64,000 nucleotides of DNA, taken from Limnohabitans sp. Rim8 (lineage in GTDB: Bacteria; Pseudomonadota; Gammaproteobacteria; Burkholderiales; Burkholderiaceae_C). The translations under genes were made by a program, and so were the position numbers. Below, in pieces: positions 3,472 to 42,167 of this stretch (within the stretch, counting starts at the first letter, position 1; each line of letters begins with the position of its first letter). The stretch spans positions 62,001 to 126,000 of the forward strand of contig CAMDFK010000007.1 of NCBI GenBank assembly GCA_945897465.1, given 5' to 3'. The notes below the pieces were generated by a model. The model searched no databases. It worked only from the letters and a program-made list of their open reading frames with translations, and was not told where the DNA came from.

Positions 3472-6192
3472 ATGACCGCGGCGACAACACAACAACCGGG
3501 CCGTGACCTGGACAGTCAGGAAACCCGTGAATGGATGGACGCGCTGTCCGCCGTGATCGAAAAAGCGGGGCCAGAGCGTGCCCACTTTTTGTTGGAAGAG
3601 CTGCTCGAGGAAGCCCGCCAGCACAGCATTGATTTGCCGTTTTCGGCCACCACCGGCTATGTGAACAGCATCGAGCCCAACGAAGAGGCCCGTTGCCCCG
3701 GTAACATCGAGATTGAAGAACGCCTGCGCGCCTACATGCGCTGGAACGCCATGGCCATGGTCGTCAAAGCCAATCGCCACAACCCCGCTGATGGGGGTGA
3801 TTTGGGTGGCCACATTGGCTCGTTTGCCTCGCTGGCCCACATGTTTGGTGCCGGTTTTAACCATTTCTGGCACGCCGAGAACGAAAACCACGGCGGTGAC
3901 TGCCTCTATATCCAGGGTCACGTCTCGCCCGGCGTCTATGCCCGCGCCTATTTGGAAGGCCGCCTGACCGAAGAGCAGTTGCTCAACTTCCGCCAAGAAG
4001 TGGACGGCAATGGCCTGTCGAGCTACCCACACCCCAAACTCATGCCCGAGTTCTGGCAGTTCCCCACGGTATCGATGGGTTTGGGCCCGCTGATGGCGAT
4101 CTACCAAGCCCGCTTTTTGAAATACCTGCACGCCCGTGGCATTGCCAACACCGAAAACCGCAAGGTCTGGGTATTCTGCGGTGACGGTGAGATGGACGAA
4201 GTCGAATCCTTGGGTGCGATCGGTCTGGCCGCCCGCGAGAACTTGGACAACCTGATTTTTGTTGTCAACTGCAACTTGCAGCGCCTCGATGGCCCGGTGC
4301 GCGGCAACGGCAAGATCGTGCAAGAACTCGAAGGCGAGTTCCGTGGCTCAGGCTGGAACGTGATCAAGCTGCTGTGGGGCAGCGAGTGGGACAGTCTGCT
4401 GGCCCGCGACAAGGACGGCGCCCTGCGCAAACTGATGATGGACACGCTGGACGGCGACTACCAGGCGTTCAAAGCCAACGACGGCGCATATGTGCGCAAG
4501 CATTTCTTTGGCCGCGACCCCCGCACACTGGAGATGGTGTCGCACCTGTCGGACAACGACATTTGGAACCTCAAGCGGGGCGGCCATGACCCACAAAAAG
4601 TGTATGCCGCATACCACAAGGCGGTGAACCACAAAGGCCAGCCCACGGTGCTGCTCATCAAGACCGTCAAAGGTTTTGGCATGGGCAAAGCCGGTGAGGG
4701 CAAAAACACCGTCCACCAGACCAAAAAGTTGACGGACGACGACATCAAGTACATGCGCGACCGCTTCAACATCCCGATCCCGGACAGCGAGTTGGCCAAG
4801 ATCCCGTTTTACAAACCGGCCGATGACACGCCCGAGATGCGTTACCTGCACGAGCGTCGCCAAGCACTGGGCGGCTATCTGCCCAAGCGCCGCGCCAAGG
4901 CCGAAGAGAGCTTCACCGTGCCCTCGCTGGAGACCTTCAAGGCCGTGATGGAGCCCACCGCCGAAGGCCGTGAAATCTCCACCACCCAAGCCTACGTGCG
5001 CTTTTTGACGCAACTGCTGCGTGACCAAGCCTTGGGCCCACGCGTGGTGCCCATTTTGGTGGACGAAGCCCGCACTTTCGGTATGGAAGGCCTGTTCCGC
5101 CAAATCGGCATCTACAACCCCGCTGGCCAGCAGTACACCCCGGTCGACAAAGACCAGGTCATGTATTACAAGGAAGACGTCGCCGGTCAGATCCTCCAAG
5201 AAGGCATCAACGAAGCCGGTGGCATGTCGAGCTGGATCGCTGCGGCCACCAGCTACAGCACCAGCAACCGCATCATGGTGCCGTTCTACGTGTACTACTC
5301 CATGTTTGGCTTCCAGCGCATTGGCGACTTGGCTTGGGCTGCGGGCGACATGCAAGCACGCGGCTTTTTGCTCGGCGGTACATCGGGCCGCACCACTTTG
5401 AACGGCGAAGGCTTGCAGCACGAAGACGGTCACAGCCACATCATGGCCAACACCATCCCCAACTGCGTGTCTTATGACCCCACCTTCGCCCACGAAGTCG
5501 GTGTCATCCTGCACCACGGTTTGAAGCGCATGGTCGAAAAGCAAGACAACGTGTTTTATTACATCACCCTGCTCAACGAAAACTACGCCATGCCTGGCCT
5601 GACGCCCGGCACCGAAGAGCAGATCATCAAGGGCATGTATTTGTGCAAGCCAGGCGCCGTGCTACCGAAGGGCACCTCCGATGCCGGTGACAAACGCGTT
5701 CAACTGCTGGGATCGGGCACCATCTTGCGCGAATCCATTGCGGCGCAAACCCTGCTGGCGACCGACTGGGGCATTCAGGCCGACGTGTGGAGCTGCCCCA
5801 GCTTCAACGAACTGACCCGCGACGGCCAAGACGCCGAGCGCCACAACATGCTGCACCCCATGGAAACACCTCGCGTGTCATTCGTGGACCAACAACTGGC
5901 CAAGCACAGTGGCCCCGTGGTGGCATCGACCGACTACATGAAGGCTTATGCCGAGCAGATCCGTCCTTTCATTCCGAAGGGCCGTATTTACAAAGTGTTG
6001 GGCACCGACGGTTTTGGCCGTTCCGACTTCCGAAGCAAGCTGCGCGAACACTTCGAGGTCAACCGCCACTACATCGTGGTCGCCGCCCTCAAGGCGCTGA
6101 GCGAGGAGGGCAAAGTGCCTGTCGCCCAAGTGGCCGAAGCCATCCGAAAGTACGGGATCAAAACCGACAAGATCAACCCCTTGTACGCATAA
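3472..6192 (+). CDS. aceE: Pyruvate dehydrogenase E1 component (homodimeric type)
   Basis: 906 aa, the usual length of the single-chain E1 of Gram-negative bacteria. It decarboxylates pyruvate with thiamine diphosphate and acetylates the lipoyl groups of E2 (AceF) in the cytoplasmic PDH complex. The ThDP/Mg motif is clear: GDGEMDE at about 236-242 followed about 25-30 residues later by the conserved NCNLQRLDGPVRGN. The N-terminal region (ETREWMDAL, FSATTGYVNSI) and C-terminal region (VLGTDGFGRSD) are also typical of AceE. The start is supported by AGGAGA 6 bases upstream. aceF follows after 15 bases, so the genes are co-transcribed. No pdhR-type GntR regulator is adjacent; instead a two-component system diverges from the operon. 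Confidence 0.98.
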   Translation: MTAATTQQPGRDLDSQETREWMDALSAVIEKAGPERAHFLLEELLEEARQHSIDLPFSATTGYVNSIEPNEEARCPGNIEIEERLRAYMRWNAMAMVVKANRHNPADGGDLGGHIGSFASLAHMFGAGFNHFWHAENENHGGDCLYIQGHVSPGVYARAYLEGRLTEEQLLNFRQEVDGNGLSSYPHPKLMPEFWQFPTVSMGLGPLMAIYQARFLKYLHARGIANTENRKVWVFCGDGEMDEVESLGAIGLAARENLDNLIFVVNCNLQRLDGPVRGNGKIVQELEGEFRGSGWNVIKLLWGSEWDSLLARDKDGALRKLMMDTLDGDYQAFKANDGAYVRKHFFGRDPRTLEMVSHLSDNDIWNLKRGGHDPQKVYAAYHKAVNHKGQPTVLLIKTVKGFGMGKAGEGKNTVHQTKKLTDDDIKYMRDRFNIPIPDSELAKIPFYKPADDTPEMRYLHERRQALGGYLPKRRAKAEESFTVPSLETFKAVMEPTAEGREISTTQAYVRFLTQLLRDQALGPRVVPILVDEARTFGMEGLFRQIGIYNPAGQQYTPVDKDQVMYYKEDVAGQILQEGINEAGGMSSWIAAATSYSTSNRIMVPFYVYYSMFGFQRIGDLAWAAGDMQARGFLLGGTSGRTTLNGEGLQHEDGHSHIMANTIPNCVSYDPTFAHEVGVILHHGLKRMVEKQDNVFYYITLLNENYAMPGLTPGTEEQIIKGMYLCKPGAVLPKGTSDAGDKRVQLLGSGTILRESIAAQTLLATDWGIQADVWSCPSFNELTRDGQDAERHNMLHPMETPRVSFVDQQLAKHSGPVVASTDYMKAYAEQIRPFIPKGRIYKVLGTDGFGRSDFRSKLREHFEVNRHYIVVAALKALSEEGKVPVAQVAEAIRKYGIKTDKINPLYA

Positions 6193-6207: not shown

Positions 6208-7893
6208 ATGGCATTGGTAGAAGTTCAAGTCCCGGACATCGGGGATTTCGATGAAGTGAACGTCATTGAGTTGATGGTCAAAGTGGGCGACACCGTGAAA
6301 GCCGAGCAATCGCTGATCACCGTGGAGTCCGACAAAGCCTCGATGGAAATCCCGTCGAGCACGGCGGGCGTCGTCAAGGAGATGCGCGTGGCGCTGGGTG
6401 ACAAGGTCAAGCAAGGCTCGGTCGTTCTGGTGGTGGAAGCCGCGGGTGCTGCCGCTGCCGCACCCGCAGCATTGAGCACAGTCCCAAGCACTGCAAGCCC
6501 ATCCCCCGTCATTGCGAGCGAAGCGCGGCAATCCAATGCAGCGGCCGCTGCACCTGCTGTTGCGCCAGTTGCAGCGGCTTCTGGCCCCGTGCAGGTGTTT
6601 GTGCCCGACATTGGAGACTTCAAAGACGTGGTCGTCATCGAAGTCATGGTCAAGCCCGGCTACACCATCAAGGTCGAGCAATCACTCATCACCGTCGAGT
6701 CCGACAAAGCCTCGATGGAGATCCCGTCCTCTCATGCGGGCGTTCTCCAAGAGCTCAAAGTTAAGGTGGGCGACAAGGTCAACATTGGCGACCTGCTGGC
6801 TGTGCTGGTTGGAACGGCCTCTGCAGCAGCCCCAGTTGCGGCCGCCGTGGCAGCGCCTGTGGCTGTGGCTTCGGCTCCGGCTGCTGCGCCAACACCTGTG
6901 GCGGCGGCCGTTGCTGCGGTCGCTGCGCCTGCCCACGCCCCCGGCGGCACCACCGTGGGCTTGCCCCACGCGTCACCGTCAGTGCGCAAGTTCGCCCGCG
7001 AGCTGGGCGTGCCGCTTGAGGAAGTCAAAGGCTCCGGCCTCAAGGGCCGCATCACGGCGGATGATATTCAAGCCTTCACCAAGGCCGTCATGTCGGGTGC
7101 TGCGCAAACCAAGGCACAAGCGGCCAAAGCCCCTGCAGCTTCGGGTGGCGATGGTGCTGGCTTGGGCTTGATTCCATGGCCCAAGGTCGACTTTGCCAAG
7201 TTTGGACCCATCGAGCGAAAAGAGATGGGCCGCATCAAGAAGATCAGCGGTGCCAACTTGCTGCGCAACGCCATCATGATCCCGGCCGTCACCAACCACG
7301 ACGATGCCGACATCACCGACCTCGAAGCCTTCCGCGTCTCCACCAACAAAGAGAACGAGAAGAGCGGCGTGAAGGTCACGATGCTGGCGTTCTTGATCAA
7401 GGCTTGTGTGGCCGCGCTCAAAAAATACCCCGAGTTCAACAGCTCGCTGGACGGCGATGCGCTGGTCTACAAAAACTACTGGCACATCGGCTTTGCCGCT
7501 GACACGCCCAATGGTTTGATGGTGCCCGTCATCCGCGATTGCGACAAAAAAGGCGTGCTGCAAATCAGCCAAGAAATGGGTGAATTGGCCAAGAAGGCGA
7601 GAGAAGGCAAACTCAGCCCCGCAGAAATGAGCGGCGCCACTTTCACCATCTCCAGCCTTGGCGGCATTGGTGGCAAGTACTTCACGCCCATCATCAACGC
7701 GCCCGAAGTGGCCATCCTCGGTGTGTGCAAGAGCACCATGGAACCCGTCTGGGACGGCAAGCAGTTTGTGCCGCGCCTGATGCTACCCCTGTCTTTGACA
7801 TGGGACCACCGCGTCATCGACGGCGCCGCAGCGGCACGCTTCAACGCGTTTCTGGGTCAAATCCTCAGCGACTTCCGTCGGGTATTACTCTAA
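6208..7893 (+). CDS. aceF: Pyruvate dehydrogenase E2, dihydrolipoyllysine acetyltransferase
   Basis: 561 aa. Domains in order: lipoyl domain 1 (1-80, lipoyl Lys43 in [10 protein letters not shown]), an Ala/Pro linker (81-127), lipoyl domain 2 (128-205, Lys167), a second Ala/Pro linker, the E1/E3-binding domain (about 252-288, ASPSVRKFARELGV), another linker, and the catalytic acetyltransferase domain (about 330-561) ending with the active-site HRVIDG (His534, Asp538). It transfers acetyl from lipoyl to CoA and forms the core of the PDH complex. Odd feature: the first linker contains the peptide [10 protein letters not shown] (100-109), encoded by a 30-base copy of a REP-like repeat that recurs in lpdA. 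The third gene of the operon starts 57 bases after the stop. Confidence 0.97.
   Translation: MALVEVQVPDIGDFDEVNVIELMVKVGDTVKAEQSLITVESDKASMEIPSSTAGVVKEMRVALGDKVKQGSVVLVVEAAGAAAAAPAALSTVPSTASPSPVIASEARQSNAAAAAPAVAPVAAASGPVQVFVPDIGDFKDVVVIEVMVKPGYTIKVEQSLITVESDKASMEIPSSHAGVLQELKVKVGDKVNIGDLLAVLVGTASAAAPVAAAVAAPVAVASAPAAAPTPVAAAVAAVAAPAHAPGGTTVGLPHASPSVRKFARELGVPLEEVKGSGLKGRITADDIQAFTKAVMSGAAQTKAQAAKAPAASGGDGAGLGLIPWPKVDFAKFGPIERKEMGRIKKISGANLLRNAIMIPAVTNHDDADITDLEAFRVSTNKENEKSGVKVTMLAFLIKACVAALKKYPEFNSSLDGDALVYKNYWHIGFAADTPNGLMVPVIRDCDKKGVLQISQEMGELAKKAREGKLSPAEMSGATFTISSLGGIGGKYFTPIINAPEVAILGVCKSTMEPVWDGKQFVPRLMLPLSLTWDHRVIDGAAAARFNAFLGQILSDFRRVLL
6505..6534 (+). repeat. REP-like repeat half-unit inserted in frame in the AceF linker
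   Basis: A 30-base segment starting CCCGTCATTGCGAGCGAAGC is identical to 8236-8265 in lpdA and differs by one base from 8197-8226. It reads as [10 protein letters not shown] between two Ala/Pro-rich linker segments, just after the first lipoyl domain. The motif resembles the dispersed palindromic repeat (CGTCATTGCGAG...CTCGCGATGACG) known from many bacterial genomes; here only the left arm is present. Confidence 0.85.
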
Positions 7894-7950
7894 TCCTTGG
7901 GGGCGGACCAAAGCGCAGCTTTGCTCGGCCCGCAACCTCTTGAGAAGAAC

Positions 7951-9849
7951 ATGGCACTCATAAATATTCAAGTCCCCGACATCGGCGACTTCGACGAAGT
8001 CACCGTGATCGAGCTGATGGTCAAGGTGGGCGACAACGTCAAATCTGACCAAAGCCTGATCACTGTGGAGAGCGACAAGGCCTCCATGGAAATTCCTTGC
8101 AGCCACGGCGGCGTGGTCAAAGAACTCAAGGTCAAGCTCGGCGACAAGGTCAAACAAGGCTCGGTGGTGTTGGTGTTGGAAGGCGAGGGCGCGTTGCCCG
8201 TCATTGCGAGCGAAGCGCTGCAATCCAGTCCCTCTCCCGTCATTGCGAGCGAAGCGCGGCAATCCATGGATCGCTTCGTCCCTCGCGATGACGGTCCTGT
8301 GCCCACTGCTGCCAGCTTCGGCGGCTCAGCCGACATCGAGTGCGACGTGCTCGTTTTGGGCGGTGGCCCCGGCGGTTACTCGGCTGCATTCCGTGCGGCC
8401 GACCTCAGCTTGAACGTGGTCATCGTCGAGCGCTACGCCACCTTGGGTGGCGTGTGTTTGAACGTGGGTTGCATCCCGTCCAAAGCGCTGTTGCACGTCG
8501 CGGCCGTCATGGACGAAGTCAGCCACATGGCCGACCTCGGCGTGGACTTCGGCAAGCCGGTGGTCAACATCGACAAGCTGCGCGGCCACAAAGAAAAAGT
8601 CATCGGCAAACTCACCGGCGGCTTGGCGGCCATGGCCAAGATGCGAAAGGTCACCACCGTGCGCGGTTTGGGCCAATTCTTGGATGCCAACCATCTTGAA
8701 GTGTCGGAGACCACCGGCACCGCGCAAGAGCAAAACGGCAGCAAAAAAGTGATTGCCTTCAAGAAGGCCATCATCGCTGCAGGCTCGCAAGCCGTGCGTT
8801 TGCCCTTCATGCTGAAGGATGGGCTAGATAAGGACCCCCGCGTGGTCGACAGCACCGGCGCTTTGGAACTCCGGAGTGTTCCTAAGCGCATGCTGATTCT
8901 GGGCGGCGGCATCATCGGCCTGGAAATGGGCACGGTTTACAGCACGCTGGGCGCACGCCTCGATGTGGTGGAAATGATGGACGGCCTCATGCAAGGCGCT
9001 GACCGCGACTTGGTCAAAGTCTGGCAAAAGATGAACGCCAAGCGCTTTGACAACATCATGCTCAAGACCAAGACCGTGTCCGCACGCGCCTTGCCCGAGG
9101 GCATTGAAGTCACGTTCGAGAGTGCTGAACCGGGCGGCACAGCCCCCGCACCGCAGGTGTACGACCTGGTCTTGCAAGCCGTGGGCCGCACGCCCAATGG
9201 CAAAAAACTCGCCGCTGAAAAAGCAGGCGTGTCTGTGACCGACCGAGGCTTCATCAACGTCGACATCCAAATGCGCACCAACGTGCCGCACATCTTTGCC
9301 ATTGGCGACATCGTGGGCCAGCCCATGTTGGCGCACAAAGCGGTGCACGAGGCGCACGTGGCGGCCGAAGTGATCGCGGGCGAACTGATGCAAGGCAACG
9401 AAGAGTTGGCCCAAAAACTCAGGTCCTCGGCGTTCAACGCACGCGTCATCCCCAGCGTGGCCTACACCGACCCCGAAGTGGCCTGGGTGGGCTTGACCGA
9501 AGACCAAGCCAAAGCCCAAGGTATCAAGGTCAAAAAAGGCTTGTTTCCTTGGACGGCGTCTGGCCGCGCCATTGCCAATGGCCGCGACGAAGGCGTGACC
9601 AAACTGCTGTTTGAAGATTCACCCGAGGTGCACGCGAATGGGGGCCACGGCAAGATCTTGGGTGGCGGCATGGTGGGCACGCACGCGGGCGACATGATTG
9701 GCGAGATCGCTCTGGCGATTGAGATGGGCGCAGACGCAGTGGACATCGGCAAAACCATCCACCCACACCCCACGCTGGGCGAAAGCATCGGCATGGCGGC
9801 GGAGGTGGCGCATGGCTCTTGCACAGATGTACCTCCAGCGAGGAAGTAA
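7951..9849 (+). CDS. lpdA: Dihydrolipoyl dehydrogenase (E3 of PDH) with N-terminal lipoyl domain
   Basis: 632 aa from the ATG at 7951, chosen because it gives the lipoyl-domain start [17 protein letters not shown] and has GAGAAG just upstream; a longer frame from 7897 is unlikely. Residues 1-78 are a lipoyl domain (Lys43 in [10 protein letters not shown]). A linker follows, then an FAD-dependent disulfide oxidoreductase: FAD-binding GGGPGGYSA, redox-active Cys169 and Cys174 in [16 protein letters not shown]-binding [13 protein letters not shown] motif IFAIGDI, and the catalytic His-Pro near the C-terminus ([10 protein letters not shown]). It reoxidises dihydrolipoamide of PDH using NAD+. E3 with a fused lipoyl domain is known from several betaproteobacteria. 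Odd feature: the linker (about 83-115) is largely encoded by REP-like repeat DNA. Confidence 0.96.
8197..8294 (+). repeat. Compound REP-like palindromic element inside lpdA
   Basis: Two left-arm units in direct orientation (8197-8226 and 8236-8265, one mismatch in 30) are followed by a right arm (about 8271-8294). Left arm CCGTCATTGCGAG (8237-8249) pairs with CTCGCGATGACGG (8282-8294) with one mismatch, making a hairpin of about 58 bases. Everything is in frame: [20 protein letters not shown], then [10 protein letters not shown]. It lies in the interdomain linker, where an insertion would be tolerated. Confidence 0.85.
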
Positions 9850-39299: not shown

Positions 39300-42167
39300 A
39301 TGAGCGAGACTAATTCCGTCTACGCTGCCTACCAAGGCAACACCTACTTGTTCGGCGGCAACGCTCCGTACGTTGAAGAGATGTACGAAAACTACCTGGC
39401 CAACCCCGGTAGCGTCCCAGATTCTTGGCGTGAGTATTTCGACGCCCTCCAGCACGTTCCCGCCGTCGACGGCACCAACGCCAAAGACGTCCCCCACCTG
39501 CCAGTCATCAACGCTTTTGCCGAACGCGCCAAGTCCGGCGGCACCAAAGTCGTCATGGCCAGCGCCGATGTCGAGATGGGCCGCAAGCGCACCGCCGTTC
39601 AGCAGTTGATCGCTGCCTACCGCAACGTGGGCCAACGCTGGGCCGATTTGGACCCCTTGAAGCGCACCGAGCGCCCCAACATTCCTGACCTCGACCCCGC
39701 TTTCTTTGGCTTTTCGGATGCCGACCAGGAAACCGTGTTCGACACCAGCAACACCTTCTTCGGCAAAAACCGCATGTCCCTGCGCGAGCTGCTCAATGCG
39801 CTGCGCGAGACCTATTGCGGCACGATCGGGGCCGAGTACATGTACACCACCGAGCAGGCTGAAAAGCGCTGGTGGCAGCAAAAGCTCGAGAGCATCCGCA
39901 GCAAGCCCAATTTCACGGCCGATAAGAAAAAGCAGATCCTCGACCGCCTGACGGCTGCCGAAGGCCTGGAGCGCTACCTGCACACCAAATACGTGGGCCA
40001 AAAGCGCTTCTCGCTCGAAGGCGGTGAGAGCTTCATCGCCGCTATGGATGAGCTGATCCAGTCGGCCGGTGCCCAAGGCGTGCAGGAAGTCGTGATCGGC
40101 ATGGCCCACCGTGGTCGCCTGAACGTGCTGGTCAACACCATGGGCAAATTGCCCGCAGACCTGTTCGCCGAGTTCGACCACACCGCCCCCGAAGATCTGC
40201 CCGCAGGTGACGTGAAGTACCACCAAGGCTTCAGCTCCGACGTGAGCACGGCCGGTGGTCCAGTCCACTTGTCACTGGCGTTCAACCCCTCGCACCTGGA
40301 AATCGTGAACCCCGTGGTCGAAGGCTCGGTGCGTGCCCGCATGGACCGCCGCGATGACCCACTGGGTAAGCAAGTGCTGCCTGTGCTGGTGCACGGCGAT
40401 GCCGCTTTTGGTGGCCAGGGTGTGAACCAGGAAACCTTTGCGCTGGCCCAAACCCGTGGTTATTCCACAGGCGGCACGGTGCACATCATCATCAACAACC
40501 AGATTGGTTTCACCACCTCTGACCCCCGCGACATGCGTTCGAGCGTGTTTTGCACCGACATCGTCAAAATGGTCGAGGCCCCAGTGCTCCACGTCAACGG
40601 TGACGATCCGGAAGCCGTGGTCATGGCCGCGCAGTTGGCCCTTGAATACCGCATGACCTTCCGCAAGGACGTGGTGCTGGACGTGGTGTGCTTCCGGAAA
40701 CTGGGCCATAACGAGCAGGACACCCCAGCTCTGACCCAGCCGCTGATGTACAAAAAGATTGCGGCCCACCCTGGCACACGCAAACTGTTTGCCGACAAAC
40801 TGGCCGCACAAGGCTTGGGCGATACATTGGGCGAGGACATGGCCAAGGCCTACCGCGCAGCCCTCGATGCCGGCAAGAACACGACCGACCCCGTGTTGAC
40901 CAACTTCAAGACCAAGTTCACCGTGGACTGGTCGCCCTTCTTGGGCAAGAAGTGGACCGATGCGGGCGACACCGCCATTCCATTGGCCGAGTGGAAGCGC
41001 TTGGCTGAAAAAATCACGACCATCCCTGAATCGGTCACGCCACACCAGTTGGTCAAAAAGGTCTACGATGACCGTGCAGCCATGGGTCGAGGCGAAATCG
41101 CGGTGGATTGGGGCATGGGCGAGCACATGGCTTTTGCCTCTTTGGTGGCCAGTGGTTACCCCGTGCGCCTGTCGGGCGAGGACTGCGGCCGTGGCACCTT
41201 CACTCACCGCCACGCCGTCATTCACGATCAAAAGCGCGAAAAGTGGGACACCGGCACCTATGTGGCGCTGCAAAACGTGACCGACAAACAAGCGCCCTTC
41301 ACGGTGATCGACTCGATCCTGTCCGAAGAAGCGGTGCTGGCTTTTGAATACGGTTATGCATCGAATGACCCCAACACCTTGGTGATTTGGGAAGCGCAGT
41401 TCGGCGACTTTGCCAACGGCGCACAGGTGGTGATCGACCAGTTCATCGCCTCGGGCGAGGTCAAGTGGGGTCGTGTCAACGGCATCACCCTGATGCTGCC
41501 CCACGGCTACGAAGGTCAAGGCCCAGAGCACAGCTCGGCCCGCGTCGAGCGCTTCATGCAGCTGGCCGCCGACACCAACATGCAACTGGTGCAGCCCACC
41601 ACGGCCAGCCAGATCTTCCATGTGCTGCGTCGCCAGATGGTGCGCAACCTGCGCAAGCCCTTGGTCATCTTCACGCCCAAGTCGCTGCTGCGCAACAAGG
41701 ACGCGACATCACCCGTGTCCGAGTTCACGCATGGCAGTTTCCAGACCGTGATCCCCGAGAACAAAACGCTCAAGGCCGACAAGGTCAAGCGCGTGGTGGC
41801 TTGCTCGGGCAAGGTGTACTACGACCTGGTCAAGCACCGCGAAGCCAAGGTTGCCGACGACGTGGCCATCATCCGTGTCGAGCAGCTTTATCCGTTCCCG
41901 CACAAAGCGTTTGCGGCCGAGCTGAAAAAGTACCCCAACGCCACCGACATCGTGTGGTGCCAGGACGAGCCACAGAATCAGGGTGCATGGTTCTTCATCC
42001 AGCACAACATCCACGAAAACATGCAAACTGGCCAAAAGCTCGGTTATGCCGGTCGTGCCGCCTCCGCTTCTCCAGCGGTGGGTTACTCGCACCTGCACCA
42101 GGACCAGCAAAAGGCGCTGATTGAGGCGGCATTTGCCAAACTCAAAGGCTTCGTGCTGACCAAGTGA
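39300..42167 (+). CDS. sucA: 2-oxoglutarate dehydrogenase E1 component
   Basis: 955 aa. E1 decarboxylates 2-oxoglutarate with thiamine diphosphate and succinylates the lipoyl group of SucB in the TCA cycle. Markers: the N-terminal SucB-binding segment (YAAYQGNTYLFGGNAPYVEEMYENYLANPGSVPDSWREYF), GMAHRGRLNVLVN, the ThDP-binding block GDAAFGGQGVNQETFALAQ, VVCFRKLGHNEQDTPALTQPLMYKKI, and near the end YPFPHKAF and WCQDEPQNQGAWFFI. GGAGGT precedes the start by 9 bases. sucB follows after 91 bases that contain a strong hairpin. Confidence 0.98.
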   Translation: MSETNSVYAAYQGNTYLFGGNAPYVEEMYENYLANPGSVPDSWREYFDALQHVPAVDGTNAKDVPHLPVINAFAERAKSGGTKVVMASADVEMGRKRTAVQQLIAAYRNVGQRWADLDPLKRTERPNIPDLDPAFFGFSDADQETVFDTSNTFFGKNRMSLRELLNALRETYCGTIGAEYMYTTEQAEKRWWQQKLESIRSKPNFTADKKKQILDRLTAAEGLERYLHTKYVGQKRFSLEGGESFIAAMDELIQSAGAQGVQEVVIGMAHRGRLNVLVNTMGKLPADLFAEFDHTAPEDLPAGDVKYHQGFSSDVSTAGGPVHLSLAFNPSHLEIVNPVVEGSVRARMDRRDDPLGKQVLPVLVHGDAAFGGQGVNQETFALAQTRGYSTGGTVHIIINNQIGFTTSDPRDMRSSVFCTDIVKMVEAPVLHVNGDDPEAVVMAAQLALEYRMTFRKDVVLDVVCFRKLGHNEQDTPALTQPLMYKKIAAHPGTRKLFADKLAAQGLGDTLGEDMAKAYRAALDAGKNTTDPVLTNFKTKFTVDWSPFLGKKWTDAGDTAIPLAEWKRLAEKITTIPESVTPHQLVKKVYDDRAAMGRGEIAVDWGMGEHMAFASLVASGYPVRLSGEDCGRGTFTHRHAVIHDQKREKWDTGTYVALQNVTDKQAPFTVIDSILSEEAVLAFEYGYASNDPNTLVIWEAQFGDFANGAQVVIDQFIASGEVKWGRVNGITLMLPHGYEGQGPEHSSARVERFMQLAADTNMQLVQPTTASQIFHVLRRQMVRNLRKPLVIFTPKSLLRNKDATSPVSEFTHGSFQTVIPENKTLKADKVKRVVACSGKVYYDLVKHREAKVADDVAIIRVEQLYPFPHKAFAAELKKYPNATDIVWCQDEPQNQGAWFFIQHNIHENMQTGQKLGYAGRAASASPAVGYSHLHQDQQKALIEAAFAKLKGFVLTK

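Follow-up and report, generated by a model that had tools for sequence, protein, structure and literature searches.

CGTC-tagged REP units as coding sequence in the lipoyl-FAD linker of LpdA, and repeat-bearing linkers of pyruvate dehydrogenase in the same genus

The pyruvate dehydrogenase gene cluster and its repeat units

The window, a stretch of 64,000 nucleotides from the freshwater bacterium Limnohabitans sp. Rim8 (genome G000, 3.02 Mb, 48 contigs), contains a gene cluster for pyruvate dehydrogenase with the following genes and repeat features.

3472..6192, plus strand: aceE, E1 of pyruvate dehydrogenase, the first gene of the cluster (open reading frame; named from sequence and position)
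6208..7893, plus strand: aceF, E2 of pyruvate dehydrogenase, 561 amino acids, two lipoyl domains (open reading frame; named by motif)
6507..6535, plus strand: CGTC-REP unit located in linker 1 of aceF, encoding VIASEARQS (genome searches; predicted fold)
7951..9849, plus strand: lpdA, lipoyl-domain E3 of pyruvate dehydrogenase, 632 amino acids (phmmer; start from relatives)
8179..8334, plus strand: linker between the lipoyl and FAD domains of LpdA, 52 residues (linker extraction from 70 genomes; coordinates counted from the sequence)
8199..8227, plus strand: CGTC-REP unit 1, encoding VIASEALQS (direct repeat; predicted fold)
8238..8266, plus strand: CGTC-REP unit 2, encoding VIASEARQS (direct repeat; probe; predicted fold)
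about 8264..8292, minus strand: CGTC-REP unit 3, reversed, the plus strand reading MDRFVPRDD (sequence; predicted fold)

Residues 1-632 of LpdA match the solved lipoyl-domain E3 5u25_A (phmmer, E 1.4e-230), and the closest relatives are records from Limnohabitans and other Comamonadaceae. The start codon at 7951 was chosen from relatives, and the open reading frame list begins at an upstream TTG at 7897. In the solved homologs 1ojt and 1bhy (P64K) the chain starts past the linker, with a match from residue 125 onward.

An earlier note on this DNA had described a dispersed palindromic repeat at 8197-8294, composed of two direct units and a complementary right arm, as an in-frame part of the LpdA linker that joins the lipoyl and FAD domains. 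Genome searches, which yielded 57 matches, confirm this description, and the two direct repeats (8197-8227 and 8236-8266, 31 bases each) are 97% identical and in frame. The right arm is also present, but it is actually a third, shorter REP unit in reverse orientation. Together with unit 2 it constitutes a dimer (8238-8292), in which the two CGTC heads lie at the outside and which has a predicted folding energy of -27.2 kcal/mol. A unit has 29 bp and a dimer 55 bp, and the segment comprises one single unit and one dimer, three CGTC-REP units in all, which encode about 33 of the 52 linker residues. The copy in aceF at 6507-6535 had been overlooked. A 34-base probe of unit 2 matched once in the window and not at all in 100 shuffles, and a search for head-like sequences with up to two mismatches gave five matches in the window, four in the E2 and E3 genes and the fifth, with two mismatches, at 39551.

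The hairpin, which according to the earlier note might affect the operon mRNA between E2 and E3, is located about 250 bases inside lpdA rather than between the two genes. A conserved, imperfect palindrome with one copy in the window was observed between aceF and lpdA (7899-7934), and its 19-base core, with at most one mismatch, is found in 13 of 70 genomes of the genus. This palindrome is a better candidate than the REP for an intergenic mRNA structure between E2 and E3.

Class of the repeat and comparison with known elements

The predicted folds of units 1 and 2 have an unpaired CGTC head, a hairpin stem and an unpaired CCA tail, and the units at 6507, 8199 and 8238 all start with CGTC and leave this head unpaired. 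The stem begins with AT. The predicted stem of unit 1 has nine pairs, one bulge and a loop of three bases; that of unit 2 has eight pairs with an internal loop and also a loop of three, while unit 3 folds more weakly. According to Di Nocera, De Gregorio and Rocco (2013, PMC3733652), CGTC-tagged REPs have a CGTC, TGTC or CCTC head, mostly a CCA tail, and a stem of 8-9 bp that starts from A-T pairs, with a loop of 4-5 bases and other loops in some families; they occur as dispersed families of many copies, among which dimers with outside heads predominate. The window repeat has in common with them, as far as described there, the unpaired CGTC head, the A-T first pairs, the CCA tail and the dimers with heads outside, and likewise its dispersal, the lack of an own transposase and the location of some copies within open reading frames. 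In contrast, its stems are interrupted and the predicted loops have three rather than 4-5 bases (PMC3733652). In its head and tail, in the A-T pairs that open the stem and in the arrangement of its dimers the window repeat is a CGTC-tagged REP, with an imperfect fit of stem and loop.

That paper already reports CGTC-tagged REPs inside genes, many of them repair genes, and suggests that intragenic copies occupy flexible linkers or loops (PMC3733652). The hosts named there for other species include uvrA, uvrD and recBCD, and uvrA, uvrD and recC were observed as hosts here. Pyruvate dehydrogenase is not mentioned in the available text, which also contains nothing on a single linker filled by unrelated repeat families or on frame statistics (PMC3733652), and no passage on a CGTC repeat in lpdA or aceF was found in searches of the main text of open-access papers. 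The system of GTAG-tagged REPs and RAYTs is unlike the present one, because the tag here is CGTC and the RAYT-like genes are not flanked by the repeat.

Rickettsia palindromic elements (RPE) are reported to be located in frame within conserved proteins (Ogata 2000; Claverie and Ogata 2003). They resemble the present case in being palindromic repeats in frame in conserved proteins that keep their function, but they are Rickettsia-specific and have 105-146 bp (PMC2229807), in contrast to the unit and dimer lengths found here. RPE-4 and RPE-6 are described as CGTC repeats themselves (PMC3733652). The enterobacterial RU/ERIC-like elements described by Delihas (2007, PMC2759123) are also mobile repeats of small size that have become joined to genes in frame, but they have another sequence and 103-168 bp. 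An intragenic CGTC REP is a known kind of element; less expected is that unrelated repeats recurrently replaced the same linkers.

Dispersal in the genome and in-frame host genes

The segment 8197-8294 has 57 matches at E <= 0.001 in the whole genome, and the 14-base REP head with at most one mismatch was found at 70 sites, compared to none for the reversed control pattern, so that the other genomic copies on which the earlier note's reading depended do exist. Pooling of both searches reduced the 127 hits to 66 clusters. Dimers were seen, but not counted, at many of these sites. The genome contains two Y1_Tnp (RAYT-like) genes (L119, L120), beside which only one weak head match with two mismatches was found, in L119; no transposase was tied to the CGTC repeat by this check of the two genes. 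Rfam gave two sub-threshold matches, none of them on the repeat.

Open reading frames were read over the 66 clusters and scored for coding potential, and the 20 best besides aceF and lpdA were analyzed with Pfam. Matches were obtained for 16 of the 20, two of which are overlapping uvrA pieces, leaving 15 further genes with an in-frame REP. Therefore, the REP is not peculiar to LpdA, as it is also present in E2 and these 15 Pfam-supported genes. In 12 of the 15 it lies within or between Pfam-matched domains, namely in the genes for SelO, PurL, a circularly permuted ATP-grasp/Alpha-E protein, an acetyl-CoA-synthetase-like enzyme, DUF1365, a VTT/pyridine-nucleotide oxidoreductase, a YgiQ-like radical SAM protein, UvrA, RecC, UvrD, an alpha/beta hydrolase and a RmlB/GMD-like epimerase. 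In the other three (NuoE/F-like, PaaD, Fe-ADH; also by Pfam) the REP has a terminal position and may be outside the true gene or domain. Four long REP-bearing open reading frames without a Pfam match (L131, L183, L170, L180) were excluded from the gene count, and L130 was rejected as a chance resemblance within an open reading frame taken by eye as an ordinary gene. At least four REP sites were observed in a long uvrA open reading frame (L157/L158) on contig 14 of G000.

The reading frame was counted for 17 loci in 16 genes, with Fe-ADH left out and uvrA represented by two of the loci. Every one of the 22 forward units is in the single phase V[IT]ASEA[RKW]QS (20 of 20 without two uvrA double counts), and 19 of 21 reverse units are in one phase, mostly read as RDD or RND (16 of 18 without three duplicates). 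In most of the inserts, two or even three frames are open. Given the open frames, the probability of one named frame at 16 of 16 forward sites is about 1.4e-5, and 4e-5 for any frame, the aceF unit having been merged with another site of identical letters. The single-phase bias in spite of two or three open frames indicates that selection picks the peptide frame.

Linkers of related genomes

LpdA linkers could be read in 79 of 80 loci, and CGTC-REP peptides were present in four (L019, L020, L024, L085). In the genus, the linker was read in 70 of 90 genomes including the window, the other 20 having partial or unlisted matches. Seven of the 70 have a CGTC-REP in the LpdA linker (window, G027, G079, G033, G015, G055, G026), three have a second repeat of the GTTGAGCG type (G053, G012, G017), and 60 have neither family and mostly Ala/Pro. 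The first E2 linker, fully read in 51 genomes, contains the CGTC-REP in six and the second family in two; the second E2 linker, read in 65, contains them in one (G055) and three, respectively. G012 is a mosaic. The linker comparison gives no indication of an ancestral linker, as the relatives do not share the peptide, and together with the other genomic copies the 60 repeat-free relatives support the claim that repeat DNA has been turned into coding sequence.

The repeat had also been called an insert. Most relatives are indeed without it, but it is no plain addition, because the length is hardly changed: the window linker has 52 residues versus a repeat-free median of 47. REP-bearing linkers have 43-65 residues (n=7), second-family linkers 45-46 and repeat-free linkers 39-60 (n=60). 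These near-normal lengths indicate that the repeats replace Ala/Pro sequence rather than adding to it, and the Ala+Pro fraction of repeat-bearing linkers is 0.26-0.54 versus a median of 0.55. The LpdA linkers of G033, G026 and G015 contain a single CGTC-REP unit.

The second family is dispersed, with 27 matches in G008 and 15 in G009. A third family, of the TTCGGGCTGAGCCTGTCGAA type, is present in the LpdA linkers of L035 and L052 and in E2 of L052, and the L035 query found 54 and 55 places in the genomes of L035 and L052; the assignment of the L052 linkers was made by eye, and the second and third families were likewise judged palindromic by eye. The peptides of the three families are unlike each other. 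In the E2 or E3 linkers of L055, L059, L065 and L075, PPPQPSP..GEG peptides encoded by C-rich hairpin-like DNA were observed. They were not counted as a fourth family, because the L059 query found a single place per genome in four genomes, which does not support dispersal.

Within the genus, a linker REP is present in 8 of 12 genomes with at least three exact heads outside the locus versus 1 of 58 others (p 4.4e-7, a rough value, since the genomes are not independent). With other cut-offs the counts are 8 of 18 versus 1 of 52 (at least one head) and 7 of 9 versus 2 of 61 (at least five). In a wider set of 50 genomes (of 67 loci), four have at least three heads, and the LpdA linker REP is found in 1 of these 4 versus 2 of 46; this set includes at least two members of the genus (L028, L029), both without REP, and E2 of L058 was unreadable. 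REP load as a general predictor of a linker REP was therefore rejected, as it holds in the genus and fails in the wider set. In the draft MAG G101 the single exact head of the genome is located in lpdA. An analogous statement for G015, that it is without other REPs, was dropped after seven further weak matches.

Exchange between linkers and between species

In G055, 58 bases are identical between the E2 linker and the E3 linker (approximately 1549-1606 and 3298-3355 of L085). They form a compound repeat that reads VIATATPASGLAVTEARQS, and a related form is present in LpdA of G079. In G015, the 16 bases preceding the E3 unit agree at 15 of 16 positions with the bases that precede the E2 unit of the window, compared to at most 11 for the other own-genome head sites (list of 70). 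Judged from these sequences, some REP units appear to have been copied from one of the two linkers to the other.

Several linker alleles have identical boundaries in different genomes: the window and G027 have GCGTTGCCC in common before unit 1, the right-hand end of the dimer is common to four genomes, the layout of the second family to three, and G026 and G033 have the same single-unit allele. Separate REP insertions in the individual genomes, without any exchange among linkers or species, would agree with the tree of the E3 catalytic domain, on which the maximum of 10 changes is required for the 10 repeat-bearing genomes; this tree is weakly resolved, as 27 of its 66 inner branches are open and the bootstrap is unsettled. 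However, the exact allele boundaries recur among genomes, and separate insertions would hardly have hit one and the same base several times; we regard independent insertion as an improbable alternative, albeit the least improbable one. On the E3 catalytic-domain tree, a constraint that unites the genomes of one linker type in a clade was rejected (AU p 0.012, 0.002, 0.017). No recent transfer tract stands out in the identity profiles, so that movement between species is read from the tree conflict alone. Lateral exchange of linker alleles between species is the favored reading of the sequence comparisons, and repeated loss is possible.

Discussion

The observations are very probably best explained by the entry of a CGTC-REP cluster into a permissive LpdA linker, its toleration in one frame, and its reshuffling by recombination. 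Three units would have entered the flexible lipoyl-FAD linker and displaced Ala/Pro sequence, and they would persist because this linker may be permissive for sequence as long as its length and openness are kept. Within genes, presumably no insertions survive except those read as V[IT]ASEARQS (for reversed units mostly as RDD/RND). Through the homology of the REPs, units could be copied from the linker of E2 to that of E3 or vice versa, and alleles of the linkers can probably pass between species.

It is also conceivable that the REP in lpdA is kept for a function at the RNA or DNA level, e.g., a mRNA hairpin that tunes E3 or a site of the gyrase/IHF type, with the peptide as a by-product. The segment 8197-8294 (98 bases) has a predicted folding energy of -42.2 kcal/mol, while shuffles gave -29.4 (sd 3.2), equivalent to z -3.97; the dimer described above is likewise predicted to fold as a strong hairpin, and synonymous changes in the REP are few. 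The window is identical to G079 over 18 REP codons, while 150 catalytic codons have 4 nonsynonymous and 33 synonymous changes; versus G027, 30 REP codons have 5 nonsynonymous and no synonymous changes, compared to 10 and 39 in 150 catalytic codons (p 0.0009). Synonymous changes are too few here for a purely neutral linker, and therefore other causes may play a part: constraint at the DNA level, homogenization by other copies or recent arrival could each contribute to the low synonymous change in this small sample. Nevertheless, the E3 REP is missing in 60 of 70 genomes of the genus and is thus dispensable, one unit suffices in G033, G026 and G015, dimers of the same genome are internal in 12 unrelated genes, which argues against a specific role in lpdA, and translating ribosomes are expected to melt the hairpin. 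A function of the RNA or DNA is thus unlikely, slightly more so than independent insertion.

Less probable still is an adaptive linker peptide, which as a charged and less Ala/Pro-rich sequence would alter the reach or assembly of the lipoyl arm of E3. The occurrence of two unrelated families in the genus and of a third one elsewhere in the same linkers, together with the lowered Ala+Pro fraction, would fit with this view. However, the three families yield unlike peptides, and the exact REP peptide is unguarded, because all five changes between the window and G027 are nonsynonymous. A chance resemblance of a normal Ala/Ser-rich linker to a REP, or an error of the assembly, has nothing in its favor and can practically be dismissed in view of zero matches in 100 shuffles, 57 genomic matches and a boundary common to three other genomes of the genus.

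Under the preferred explanation, i.e., the tolerated and reshuffled CGTC-REP cluster, we infer from the sequence comparisons that the REP linker would be neutral for the enzyme and that recombination would be its mode of spread. A more far-reaching view, which is tentative and rather doubtful at present, is that the pyruvate dehydrogenase linkers of E2 and E3 in the genus might be a coding refuge for small palindromic repeats. Unrelated families would repeatedly take the place of Ala/Pro sequence with hardly any change in length, would be exchanged between the two linkers as well as among species, and would preserve their DNA sequence better than synonymous sites nearby, so that an intact REP could persist in a gene as the sole copy found in a genome (the draft MAG G101).

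The linkers represent a natural series: different selfish repeats have rewritten one linker of a central metabolic enzyme, and sisters that are free of repeats serve as controls. The cost of a repeat within a gene and the movement of REPs without transposase are testable through this series. The case is also a warning that V[IT]... and similar peptides in databases derive from repeat DNA.
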